From the NCBI GenBank assembly GCA_025360225.1, contig JANYCN010000017.1:1-38354 (forward strand): a stretch of DNA of 38,354 nucleotides, given 5' to 3'. This document shows positions 11,025 through 29,315 of this stretch, piece by piece. A model generated the notes under the pieces. The model was not told where the DNA came from. It saw only the letters and a program-made list of their open reading frames with translations, and did not search any database. The position numbers were made by a program, and so were the translations under genes. The number at the start of each line of letters is the position of its first letter. The stretch's first letter is position 1. This DNA is from Actinomycetes bacterium. GTDB taxonomy: Bacteria > Actinomycetota > Thermoleophilia > Gaiellales > F1-60-MAGs149.

Positions 11025-13063
11025 ACCTGCTCCGCCCCGACCTCCAGCCGTTCGTTGCCCCGCGTACCGCCGTCATCCTTGGCGCGTCGTCCCGCAACGG
11101 CGTTGCCGCGAACCTCCTGCGCAACCTGTCCGCGGGTGGCTGCGTCGTTTCCGGCACCCACCCGCGTGAGACGGAGTTCCGGGGAGCGACGCTCGCCCCG
11201 ACGGTCGCTGCACTGGGCATCGTCCCGGACATCGCGTGCGTTGCGCTCGGCGCGACGACGATCGGTCCGGCGATCGAGGAGGCGGTCGCCGCCGGCGTCC
11301 GGCACCTCGTCGTCCCCGGCCTCGGGCCGGAGGCGGGCGTGCATGGTGACGCTGCGCGTGCGCACCTCGCGGCCCTCTGTCGCTCTCACGAGCTCTCGCT
11401 GATCGGCCCGAACGGGATGGGCGTGCTCGTGCCCGGCGGGGCCTCTGCGTGGACCGGTTCGGTCGCGCCGAGCATGCGGCGCGGCGGTGTCGGCATCCTC
11501 GTCGAGTCCGGATCGATCGGCGAGGCGCTCACCGGGATCGGCCCCCGGATCGGCATCCGTACGATCATCTCGAGCGGCAACGAGACGTCGCGAGACGCCG
11601 CCGACATCCTCGCGTTCCTCGCGAACGACGAGGAGACGACGGCGATCGGGTTGATGCTGGAGACGGTCAGGCGCCCCGTGGCGTTCCGTGCGGCGCTGGA
11701 GGCCGCGGCGGCGGCCGGCAAGCCGGTGGCGATCGTGAAGACGGGCACCAGCGTCGTCGGCGCGGAGCGGGCGCTCGCTCACTCGGGGGCGATCGCTGGC
11801 TCGGAGGCCGCGTTTGCGGCGCTCTGTCGCGCCTACGATGTGATCCGGACGACCGATTACGGCGACTGGGTTGAGAGCCTTGAGCTTCTCGGTGGCGCGC
11901 GGCGTCTCCGCGGCCGACACGTCGTGGTGATCACGAACTCTGGTGGCGAGGGCGAGCACGCGGCGGATGCAGCCGAGCGTGCTGGGATGGCGCTGCAGCC
12001 TTTGCCGGCTGACCTGGCTCGGGAGCTCGACGAGCGTTGGGCGCTCCACGGTGCCGCAAACCCGCTCGACTACTACGCCTTTGCGCCGCAGGAGGAGATC
12101 CTTCCTGACGTGATGCGCGCCGCCGCGGCGCATCCTGAGGTCGACGGCGTGCTGCTCAACATCGACCAGTCGTGGCGCTTCGTCGGATCCGAGCGGGAGA
12201 CGAACCTGTTCGCCGCCGAGGTGGCGATCGCGACGGCAGCGATCGCCGTCGACACGTTCGTTGCGATCCTCTCGACGAGCACGAATGACGCCTCGGACGA
12301 GGTCCTCACGCGCTGCGCCACCGCTGGCGTGCCGGTCCTGATGGGCCACGGACCGTCGTTCCGGGCGTTGGCGGCGATCACCGCCGAGACCGGTCGCGAC
12401 GTTGCCGAGCCAGTGGTCGCGGCGCCATCGGTGCCCGCGCACCTGCTCGGCCGTGCGCCCGGCCCGCTGCCGGAACGCGACTCGAAGGAGTGGCTCGGGT
12501 GCTACGGCGTCCGCTCGCCCGTCGAGCGTCGTGCCGTGGGCGTCGACGACGCCGTCGCCGCGGCGGAGTCGATCGGGTACCCGGTGGTCGTGAAGGCCGA
12601 TGGTCCGGCACACAAGGAGCGGGACGGAGGCGTGCACCTCGGCCTGGCGACCGCTGCGATGGTCGCCCGTGCCACCGAGGCATGTGGAGGACGGGTCCTG
12701 GTCGCCGAGCAGCTCGGCGGTGGTGTTGAGGTGCTCTGCGGGCTCGTGCGCGACCCGCTCTGCGACACGATGGTCGTCTGCGGCGTCGGCGGCTCGTGGG
12801 CGGAGGCGATGAAGGAGTCTGCACGCACGGCGATCGCACCGCTCTCGCAAGAGGCGGCAGAGGCACTCGTTCGCGACGTCGTACCGGTCGCGCGTCGCCT
12901 CGACGACGCCGGCATCGCCGTGGTCGCCGCGACGCTCGTGGCCCTTGGCCGGGCGGCGGCGGATGAGCCACGGATCCGCGAGATCGATGTCAACCCGCTG
13001 CGCGTGCTCGGCGCCGACGCCGTCGCCCTCGATGCGCTGATCGTGATCGGAGAGCCGGAGTGA
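11021..13063 (+). CDS. ADP-forming acyl-CoA synthetase (paralog 1)
   Basis: 680-aa fused enzyme of the NDP-forming acyl-CoA synthetase (ACD) family, which makes an acyl-CoA from acid, CoA and ATP with ADP and phosphate as products. Domains in order: Rossmann CoA-binding (AVILGASSRNGVAANLL near residue 15), succinyl-CoA-ligase-like domain holding the phospho-histidine (His254 in ALAHSGAIAG), and a C-terminal ATP-grasp domain (YPVVVKADGPAHKERDGG, and the closing IREIDVNPLRV). The long frame extends upstream of 11021, but the GTG in the GTGA overlap fits the domain start. A second ACD lies at 15077. Likely role: activating the acid produced by oxidation or demethylation for CoA-dependent breakdown. 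Confidence 0.9.
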   Translation: MNLLRPDLQPFVAPRTAVILGASSRNGVAANLLRNLSAGGCVVSGTHPRETEFRGATLAPTVAALGIVPDIACVALGATTIGPAIEEAVAAGVRHLVVPGLGPEAGVHGDAARAHLAALCRSHELSLIGPNGMGVLVPGGASAWTGSVAPSMRRGGVGILVESGSIGEALTGIGPRIGIRTIISSGNETSRDAADILAFLANDEETTAIGLMLETVRRPVAFRAALEAAAAAGKPVAIVKTGTSVVGAERALAHSGAIAGSEAAFAALCRAYDVIRTTDYGDWVESLELLGGARRLRGRHVVVITNSGGEGEHAADAAERAGMALQPLPADLARELDERWALHGAANPLDYYAFAPQEEILPDVMRAAAAHPEVDGVLLNIDQSWRFVGSERETNLFAAEVAIATAAIAVDTFVAILSTSTNDASDEVLTRCATAGVPVLMGHGPSFRALAAITAETGRDVAEPVVAAPSVPAHLLGRAPGPLPERDSKEWLGCYGVRSPVERRAVGVDDAVAAAESIGYPVVVKADGPAHKERDGGVHLGLATAAMVARATEACGGRVLVAEQLGGGVEVLCGLVRDPLCDTMVVCGVGGSWAEAMKESARTAIAPLSQEAAEALVRDVVPVARRLDDAGIAVVAATLVALGRAAADEPRIREIDVNPLRVLGADAVALDALIVIGEPE

Positions 13064-26871: not shown

Positions 26872-26955
26872 GCGGATGTGGCGGAATTGGTAGACGCGCA
26901 CGGTTCAGGTCCGTGTGCCCGTAAGGGCGTGGAGGTTCAAGTCCTCTCATCCGCA
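26872..26955 (+). tRNA. tRNA-Leu (anticodon CAG)
   Basis: 84-nt class II tRNA. Acceptor arms GCGGATG and CATCCGC pair, discriminator A at 26955, CCA not encoded. D-arm has GGCGGAATTGGTAGACGC; the anticodon arm CACGG-TTCAGGT-CCGTG gives CAG; long variable arm (TGCCCGTAAGGGCGT); T-arm GGAGG-TTCAAGT-CCTCT. Reads CUG codons, common in this genome. Followed 21 nt later by a MITE copy. Confidence 0.97.
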
Positions 26956-26976
26956 TCGCGATCGGCGCCTAGCCTA

Positions 26977-27193
26977 GTGGTCTGATTGTCAGATGGCATG
27001 GTCATCGGGTGTCTGGAGCGAGCGGGAGCGTTGCGCGTCGCGCAGGGCTTGCTGATCGCGGGCGTGCTGGATAGCACGCCCGCTCGCACGCGTGTCAAGG
27101 CGAAGGCCTTGACACGCTAAGTGCAAGCGGCGCGCGACGTTCTCGCGAAGCCCACGATCCGGCACGCAGAGCGGGCCGGGGCGTGGTCGCCGC
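26977..27193 (+). mobile_element. MITE copy 1, right end missing
   Basis: 217 bp matching 28989-29205 with 5 mismatches and no gaps. It starts GTGGTCTGATTG next to CTAG (TA at 26975-26976), like the intact copy, but about 95 bp including the right terminal repeat are absent; the match stops where the acetyltransferase coding sequence begins. Both internal hairpins are kept (27058-27083 and 27090-27117). Confidence 0.88.
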
Positions 27194-27688
27194 GAGCTCG
27201 AGCAGCATCCGCGTGTTGCCAAGGGTGTTGGGCTTGACGCGTTCTAGCTCGAGGAACTCAGCGACGCCTTCGTCGAAGGAGCGTCGCAGCTCGTCGTAGA
27301 CCGCCGGCGACACCGGCGCGCCCTCGATCTCGGAGAACCCGTGACGCGCGAAGAAGGCGACCTCGAAGGTGAGGACGAACACGCGGGCGATCCCCAGCTC
27401 GCGCGCCGTTGCGATCAGCTCGGCGACGATCGCGTGGCCGACGCCTGCGCCGCGGCAGGCGCTGTCGACGGCGACGGTGCGGATCTCCGCGATGTCCTCC
27501 CACAACGGGTGCAGCGCGCCGCAGCCGACGACGACGCCGTCGAGCTCGGCGACGCGGAAGTCCTGGATGTCCTCGTACAGCGCGACGGGCTGTTTCGCCA
27601 GCATGATGCCGTCGCTGACGTACGCCTCGACGAGCGCCCTGATCACACGGACGTCTGCCGTGCGTGCTCGTCGAACGACCGCGCGCAC
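27095..27688 (-). CDS. ArgA-like N-acetyltransferase with MITE-derived tail
   Basis: 197 aa GNAT enzyme of the amino-acid N-acetyltransferase type found as a short ArgA in actinobacteria (first step of arginine synthesis). Core: VVRRARTADVRVIRALVEAY, acetyl-CoA loop VDSACRGAGVGHAIVAELI, and the family end RVKPNTLGNTRMLLEL. After that the last ~30 residues (PRPALRAGSWASRERRAPLA...) and the TGA stop come from MITE copy 1; the same peptide is encoded, unused, by copy 2. The natural stop was lost. The GTG at 27688 starts 4 nt after the flavoprotein stop; upstream residues in the frame overlap that gene. Probably still active, since the fold is complete. Confidence 0.82.
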   Translation of the reverse strand: MRAVVRRARTADVRVIRALVEAYVSDGIMLAKQPVALYEDIQDFRVAELDGVVVGCGALHPLWEDIAEIRTVAVDSACRGAGVGHAIVAELIATARELGIARVFVLTFEVAFFARHGFSEIEGAPVSPAVYDELRRSFDEGVAEFLELERVKPNTLGNTRMLLELAATTPRPALRAGSWASRERRAPLALSVSRPSP

Positions 27689-27692
27689 GTCG

Positions 27693-28358
27693 CTACGCGC
27701 GGCTGTAGCCGGCGATGGTGTCGGTGATCTCGATCCCGGCACGCAGGCGTGGGTCGGCGAGCGGCGGCCCGAACGTCGTCCTTGCGGGGATCACGCCGGC
27801 CCAGCAGTCGACCTCGGCGACGTCCTCGTCGGGGTCCCCTGGCGGCCCGCTGCGAACCTTGGCGGACGCCTCGTTCAGCGGCAACCAGACGATCGTCGTC
27901 GCCTTCAGCTCGGTCGCCGTCGGGGGGCGCAGGTCGGCCCAGCGGTTCGGGATGATGCGGTTCGTGAAGAGCGCGAGCGCCGCGAGCTTCTCGTCCGCAT
28001 CGTCGATCAGCGTCGGCATGCCGAGCACGGCGACGGAGCGGTAGTTCGCCGAGTGGTTGTACGCCGACCTGGCGCAGACGAGGCCGTCGAGCAGCGTGAC
28101 GGTGACGCAGCACCGTGCGCCGGCGGCGAGCAGGCGCATCGGACGCGACGCGGAGGAGCCGTGCAGCAGGAGCCGGTCGCCGTCGCGCACGTGCTGGCTC
28201 GGGATGACGTATGGCTGGTCGTCGACGACGAAGCCGATGTGACAGACGATCGCCTCGTCGAGGATCGGCTCGATCGTCGGCGCGTCGTAGTGACCGCGCT
28301 CGGGCATCCGACGTACGCGGACGCGGTCGGTGGGTGGGGTGGTCGGAGCGCGGCTCAT
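27693..28358 (-). CDS. Pyridoxamine-phosphate-oxidase-like FMN protein
   Basis: 221 aa of the split-barrel flavin-binding family (NimA/pyridoxamine 5'-phosphate oxidase-like). Seen: ILDEAIVCHIGFVVDDQPYV, then DRLLLHGSSASRPMRLLAAG (phosphate-binding), and the barrel strands LDGLVCARSAYNHSANYRSV. These proteins reduce nitro groups or bind FMN in unknown reactions. Upstream gene of a two-gene unit with the acetyltransferase. TAGCCT sits 6 nt before the ATG. Confidence 0.85.
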   Translation of the reverse strand: MSRAPTTPPTDRVRVRRMPERGHYDAPTIEPILDEAIVCHIGFVVDDQPYVIPSQHVRDGDRLLLHGSSASRPMRLLAAGARCCVTVTLLDGLVCARSAYNHSANYRSVAVLGMPTLIDDADEKLAALALFTNRIIPNRWADLRPPTATELKATTIVWLPLNEASAKVRSGPPGDPDEDVAEVDCWAGVIPARTTFGPPLADPRLRAGIEITDTIAGYSRA

Positions 28359-28431: not shown

Positions 28432-28986
28432 GTGAGCGCGGTCATCGACGAGGTGGTGTTCCGCGAGCTCGAGGAGGCGGCTGGGGTCGAGTTCGTGCGC
28501 GAGCTCGTCGACGCGTTCGCTCGAGCTGGGCGGCATTGACCGCGCCGCCGCCGCTCACCGCGCGCTCGTCTGCGAGTGCAACGAGGCGATGGCGAGGCTC
28601 CTGGAGCTCGCTGGTGGGTAGCCCCGGGCGCCTGAGCGTCGTCGACGACAACCGCCTGAACCGGCTCCTGCTCTCGCGGTCGCTCGAGCTGCTCGGCCAC
28701 GCGGTCGAGGGCGCCTTCGATGTGCACCGGCGCCGAGCGCGGCGCCCGCAGCAGACGCCGTCGCTGCAGCCGTTGACCTGCTCGAGCTGCTCGCCGGCTT
28801 CAACGACGAGCAGGTCATCCGGGGTCGAGACCGTCTCGACGTCTGCATCGGCATCGCGACGGGCGACGTCGTTGCCGGGTACACGGGCACGAACCAGCGC
28901 GCCGCCTACACCGGTGTCGGTGACCTGGGGAGCCGGGCGGCCCGGCTTGAGGCGCCCACGCAGGTCGCCGGCGTGCCCGTTCTTGC
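28432..28986 (+). pseudogene. Decayed Hpt / receiver / nucleotide cyclase locus
   Basis: Three recognisable signalling remnants in three frames. At 28432-28539, VVFRELEEAAGVEFVRELVD resembles the start of an Hpt domain and ends in a premature TGA. At about 28629-28723, LSVVDDNRLNRLLLSRSLEL is the first strand and helix of a response-regulator receiver, then breaks off. From about 28772, LDVCIGIATGDVVAGYTGTN, RAAYTGVGDLGSRAARLEAP and GVPVLAS are the C-terminal half of a class III adenylate/guanylate cyclase. It stops exactly at the CTAG where MITE copy 2 is inserted. Most of each domain is gone, so this is a relic of one or more signalling genes, not a working product. A reading of 28523-28621 between them is unassigned. 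Confidence 0.75.
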
Positions 28987-29069
28987 TAGTGGTCTGATTG
29001 TCAAATGGCATGGTCATTGGGTGTCTGGAGCGAGCGGGGGCGTTGCGCGTCGCGCAGGGCTTGCTGATC

Positions 29070-29095
29070 GCGGGCGTGCTGGATAGCACGCCCGC
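29070..29095. repeat. MITE hairpin 1
   Basis: Arms GCGGGCGTGCT and AGCACGCCCGC pair over 11 bp around a GGAT loop. Identical in copy 1 at 27058-27083. Confidence 0.85.
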
Positions 29096-29101
29096 TCGCA
29101 C

Positions 29102-29129
29102 GCGTGTCAAGGCGAAGGCCTTGACACGC
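29102..29129. repeat. MITE hairpin 2
   Basis: Arms GCGTGTCAAGGC and GCCTTGACACGC pair over 12 bp around a GAAG tetraloop. Identical in copy 1 at 27090-27117, where it contains the stop codon of the acetyltransferase. Confidence 0.85.
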
Positions 29130-29315
29130 TAAGCGCAAGCGGCGCGCGACGTTCCCGCGAAGCCCACGATCCGGCACGCAGAGCGGGCCGGGGCGTGGTC
29201 GCCGGAGCTGAGCGGCGTAGCCACCCGACGGGTGGCAGAGCCGACAAGCGCAGTACGATCCAGGCAGTCGGATGACCACGCCATTTCGCAATCAGACCAC
29301 TAGCACGCCCCGCGG

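Follow-up and report, generated by a model that had tools for sequence, protein, structure and literature searches.

A truncated MITE supplies the C-terminal tail of an ArgA-like protein, and its family sits on stop codons of an actinobacterial genome

How does the gene of a conserved enzyme come to end inside a mobile element? The question is raised by an argA-like gene found in a stretch of 38,354 nucleotides (the window) from an Actinomycetes bacterium. The ORF (27095-27742, minus strand) encodes 215 amino acids, and its native part (27194..27742, minus strand) encodes residues 1-183, which terminate in ...NTRMLLEL. Delimited by the end of the profile match and by the stops of orthologs, this part closes with GAG CTC and lacks the ancestral stop. 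Residues 19-183 match positions 5-170 of NF005921, a profile of 170 positions, with 266 bits (NCBIfam; curated cut-off 180). NF005921 is the NCBIfam profile of the PRK07922-type amino-acid N-acetyltransferase, or N-acetylglutamate synthase. Family-invariant residues are retained, in an alignment of 19 orthologs 62-70% identical to the window protein, and the product is a putative N-acetylglutamate synthase of this type. A sequence-only reading of the window had proposed that the frame runs past the normal family end, and the profile is indeed exhausted (170/170) at residue 183.

Residues 184-215, AATTPRPALRAGSWASRERRAPLALSVSRPSP, are read out of a truncated miniature element, as that reading had also proposed in placing the ORF and its tail where they are described here. 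The tail measures 32 residues (about 30 had been estimated), spans 27098..27193 on the minus strand with its first codon straddling the junction, and was delimited by identity to a second copy of the MITE and by coding score. Copy 1 (26974..27192, plus strand) is without its right end, approximately 100 bp, as determined by comparison with copy 2 and with copies elsewhere in the genome. Copy 2 (28986..29303, plus strand) is complete, and features CTAG at both ends and inverted repeats of roughly 34 bp at its termini. This 318 bp element carries no transposase gene, and its 34 bp repeat arms are 91% complementary. Copy 1 (26974-27192) and the corresponding segment of copy 2 (28986-29204) align without gaps and are 98% identical. 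At the right end of copy 2 one frame is open (SGLIAKW...SAPATTPRPALRAGSWASRERRAPLALSVSRPSP-stop) and includes the peptide of the argA tail, so that the two copies do encode the same peptide, in the sole frame left open there. The other two frames meet an immediate TAG stop, or a TGA after LVV; the end of an intact element brings a stop in two frames out of three.

The junction between gene and truncated MITE (27191..27200) was examined against 30 copies of the MITE and 14 orthologs. It reads GAGCTC/GCGGCGACC, in full GAGCTCGCGGCGACC, and features AGCT(C) microhomology; MITE copies carry [GC]AGCT[CG]CGGCGACC some 100 bp inward of the right end. One base is unaccounted for by any single MITE copy with a clean AGCTC crossover. 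Two MITE hairpins follow, hairpin 1 (27090..27117) with a 12-bp stem and hairpin 2 (27058..27083) with an 11-bp stem, both identified by folding. They fold strongly (z -8.3), and the TGA stop of the ORF (27095..27097, minus strand) lies in one arm of hairpin 1, as had been noticed. By their position the hairpins may be located at the end of the argA mRNA; no U-run terminator was found. The sole match of an Rfam search is the tRNA-Leu(cag) gene (26872..26955, plus strand; also called by ARAGORN), which is convergent with argA; 18 bp separate it from the left end of copy 1, which is intact.

The tail derives from the MITE and has no counterpart in orthologs. The latter comprise 14 near ones (13 belonging to the same family, one to the same order) and 80 named actinobacterial ones; the comparison turned up no MITE-free relative with the same tail, which is absent from all 94. 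In 12 of the 14 near orthologs the stop directly follows the ...ML-x-x-L end, and the other two run 3-4 residues further. Orthologs commonly end in GAG CTC TAG, and the stop codon lies within CTAG in 9 of the 14. The same stop point is used in 56 of the 80 named orthologs, and the remaining 24 carry 1-13 extra residues, none resembling the tail. The argA gene is intact to its last sense codon; missing are the stop codon, any spacer there was, and some 100 bp of the MITE. The earlier suggestion that the element had replaced both the stop and the 3' end stands for the stop, which is gone, but not for the 3' end, as the C-terminus of the family is complete.

The added sequence, which includes the peptides AGSWASR and APLALSVSRPSP, is strongly basic (pI about 12). 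In an AlphaFold2 model of the protein, based on an alignment of little depth (mean pLDDT 72), the last strand is found at residues 177-182, and residues 190-213 have pLDDT <50; what follows the last strand is predicted to be disordered. By a coding score for the host genome the native part is strongly coding (+118) and the tail is not (-8). We infer that the tail is translated, and that its effect on the enzyme is small.

The element belongs to a family dispersed in the genome, a 3.24 Mb incomplete assembly of 89 contigs (GC 70% in the sample). About one quarter was read contiguously, and the remainder in segments surrounding known copies. The terminal repeat (up to 3 mismatches) has 260 matches genome-wide, and none was obtained with a reversed control pattern, so the repetition of copies 1 and 2 is beyond chance. 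The sequences are short, lack a transposase gene, have terminal inverted repeats, and occur in many dispersed copies, as MITEs do. Most complete copies measure 316 bp from TAG to CTA, but shorter, internally deleted kinds occur too. Among 180 distinct terminal repeats taken with their flanking sequence, 121 start with CTAG and 33 with CTCG. As to a target site duplication, most copies have CTAG at both ends, and no duplicated bases are found past this tetranucleotide, which is itself palindromic and repeat-borne, with a variable third base. Many contigs break off inside the MITE, which points to recent, near-identical copies. The exact terminal repeat was not found in 100 relatives. Other truncated copies with argA-like fusions were sought in 822 kb, and none is as clean.

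Throughout the genome, elements of this family are found on stop codons. Genes were called by a home-made procedure, using hexamer coding scores derived from the long ORFs of the same genome, and 53 element ends proved to be entered by the reading frame of a gene. The frame is xxC-TAG in 45 of these, where the CTAG of the element provides the TAG stop of the gene (binomial p 1.3e-14). The remaining ends are read as CTA-GTG-GTC-TGA or its CTCG variant (6/53), or in an open frame (2/53). The three frames are equally represented at random positions, and CTAG sites without an element are in the xxC-TAG frame in 41 of 126 cases only (Fisher p 1e-10). Eight genes abutted by elements are complete according to NCBIfam profile coverage: formate-THF ligase (557/557), TypA (594/594), IF-2 (585/587), nucleoside-diphosphate kinase (135/141), FolB (115/116), thiol peroxidase (165/167), PntB (459/460) and DAHP synthase (440/443). 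A second genome, from another genus of the same bacterial family (G003; loci L061 1320-1583 and L192-L221), harbours a diverged MITE family whose ends read CTAGTGGT[GT]CG. There, 15 of 17 gene-abutting ends fall on stop codons, and a citrate-synthase-like gene, so named from its sequence, ends ...REFVPMARR-TAG.

How much of this habit resides in the choice of target may be judged from CTAG sites devoid of elements. Of 47 elements 16 lie at stops, compared with 38 of 194 CTAG sites free of elements (p 0.05). Given these figures, targeting of CTAG combined with loss of gene-breaking insertions is enough to account for most of the stop occupancy, and active recognition of stop codons is not needed. 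As insertion rebuilds the stop, C-TAG stops are harmless landing sites.

CTAG is itself scarce in the genome carrying the window (G000): 248 occurrences, elements included, were counted in 783 kb, versus about 2,160 expected from base composition, which makes it approximately nine-fold rarer than predicted. In the same genome the base before a TAG stop is four times as often G as C (185 vs 47), as if C-TAG gene ends were avoided or lost. A single element (12163-12443 in stretch L106) closes two convergent genes, each of which takes its TAG stop from one of the CTAG ends.

A history of the argA tail, drawn from one genome, may be reconstructed on these grounds. With CTAG scarce and insertion within genes harmful, an element entering a ...C-TAG gene end would leave CTAG at each side and rebuild the stop, and would set a hairpin-rich stretch 3' of the gene. 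At argA the MITE would have entered the CTAG of the stop, the ancestral end being probably ...GAG CTC TAG. A deletion between two AGCT(C) stretches may then have taken out the stop together with the right end of the MITE, some 100 bp. Once deprived of the stops at the element end, the frame would continue in register through the interior of the MITE to the TGA in the hairpin, and yield the 32-residue basic tail. Loss of the stop needs this second step, because an intact end carries stops in two frames out of three and the relatives of the element sit on stops. That CTAG-targeting MITEs occupy TAG stops, and that the argA copy did so before a deletion of about 100 bp gave rise to the tail, is the account that we consider likely.

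The same final sequence would be obtained if the MITE had inserted at some point 3' of argA's stop codon and one deletion had then taken away this codon, the spacer and the element's right end together. In this genome roughly half of the element ends, or more, touch no gene's stop, which speaks for this order of events. Yet 45 of 53 gene-abutting ends are exactly on stops, and the argA stop is often part of CTAG in relatives; downstream insertion is therefore regarded as rather unlikely. A misjoined contig is a concern of another kind, because the assembly breaks at the MITE in many places, and two 98% identical copies reside 2 kb apart. False joins, however, need long identical stretches, and the sequences meeting at the junction share about 5 bases, far below an assembly word; both the gene side and the MITE side are as expected up to that point. 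The conserved neighbourhood was also looked at as an assembly check, and neither the tRNA-Leu gene nor the PNPOx-like neighbour adjoins argA in relatives. We hold an artefact to be highly improbable.

In a further reading the tail would have been taken into use, in regulation, partner binding or mRNA control, which would make the fusion adaptive. The ORF is intact, the tail is strongly basic, and two strong hairpins are found at the end of the gene. Against adaptation, copy 1 is 97-98% like other copies and hence young, and the tail, known from one genome, is predicted disordered and has a coding score which is not host-like; such a role has a slim chance only.

The enzyme mobilizing these elements was searched for in the same incomplete assembly. 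PF13358, which denotes the IS630-type (DDE_3) transposase, is absent from it, whereas positive controls were matched, and no autonomous parent sharing the MITE ends was found in the genome. IS630 reportedly prefers TA within CTAG, as the title of a 1991 paper by Tenzen and Ohtsubo has it, and by analogy an IS630-type driver is plausible, even if the searched genome yielded none. The 121 of 180 ends that start with CTAG are compatible with such a preference, but do not prove a choice of target. An element encoding an IS5-family transposase, with ends GRGTCCGTYTCAGTAG, is nested in several MITE copies, in each at the same TAA next to hairpin 1 (L306 on contig C26, L307 on C84, L312 on C53). Likeness is 96.8% among the 3' ends of the IS5 elements, but 86.5% among the MITE halves around them, which are closest to different solo MITEs. 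This looks like repeated, later insertion into one MITE hotspot, and the IS5-family transposase has been rejected as parent or driver.

MITE-supplied tails are known, and the argA tail is a further case. In Coxiella burnetii Dugway, QMITE2 supplies the last 33 residues of EnhC (PMC5896051). As at argA, the MITE provides a protein end and a strong stem in the transcript, and in a sister strain a stop precedes QMITE2; Coxiella strains differ, however, by an indel before the element, whereas at argA the element itself is truncated (PMC5896051). The part of that paper at hand reports no stop-codon rule, though it lists small C-terminal overlaps of QMITE2 with several genes. In the amidase ECA3499 of Erwinia carotovora, fusion with the RU-1 (ERIC) repeat similarly eliminated the normal stop and appended a tail past the conserved domain, but RU-1 is a 127-bp enterobacterial repeat of unrelated sequence, devoid of CTAG ends (PMC2759123). 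Mycobacterial MIRUs are likewise small mobile repeats set at a boundary codon with little harm to the gene; they use start codons and couple translation via an ORF of their own, in contrast to the elements described here, which use stop codons and rebuild them (PMC12548453). Rickettsia palindromic elements are also small palindromic repeats translated within host proteins, but enter ORFs in frame, whereas here gene interiors are avoided and translation into the element is exceptional (PMC10969869). Terminal TA and terminal inverted repeats are shared with IS630/Tc1-mariner elements and with MITEs such as RUP (PMC2170065, PMC2229807), but no IS630-type transposase was found in the genome, and kinship with these elements is putative.

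Occupancy of stop codons on such a scale is the newer part. A review names 3' untranslated regions as a site of MITEs, and gives no stop-codon rule (PMC10969869); no MITE with systematic use of stop codons is reported in the open-access papers searched. Targeting CTAG, which is scarce in a GC-rich genome and often found at C-TAG stops, and rebuilding the stop offers a mobile element a simple route to fill a gene-dense genome nearly harmlessly. The same habit yields new protein ends upon decay of the element, as at argA, and the 3' hairpins common to many unrelated genes allow the idea of mRNA ends brought in by elements to be tested. More tentatively, a MITE lineage common to at least two genera might have specialised in stop codons, its shared 3' hairpins affecting the mRNAs of dozens of housekeeping genes and its occasional decay producing new tails such as that of argA; we view this wider picture as possible, but doubtful.

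A second CTAG lies at most 9 bp outside the element at 20 of 180 ends, though CTAG is otherwise rare. Copy 1 features such an extra CTAG (window 26967-26977, CCTAGCCTAGTGG). Nearby second CTAGs are perhaps the footprints of earlier insertion and excision, or denote a preference for clustered CTAGs.
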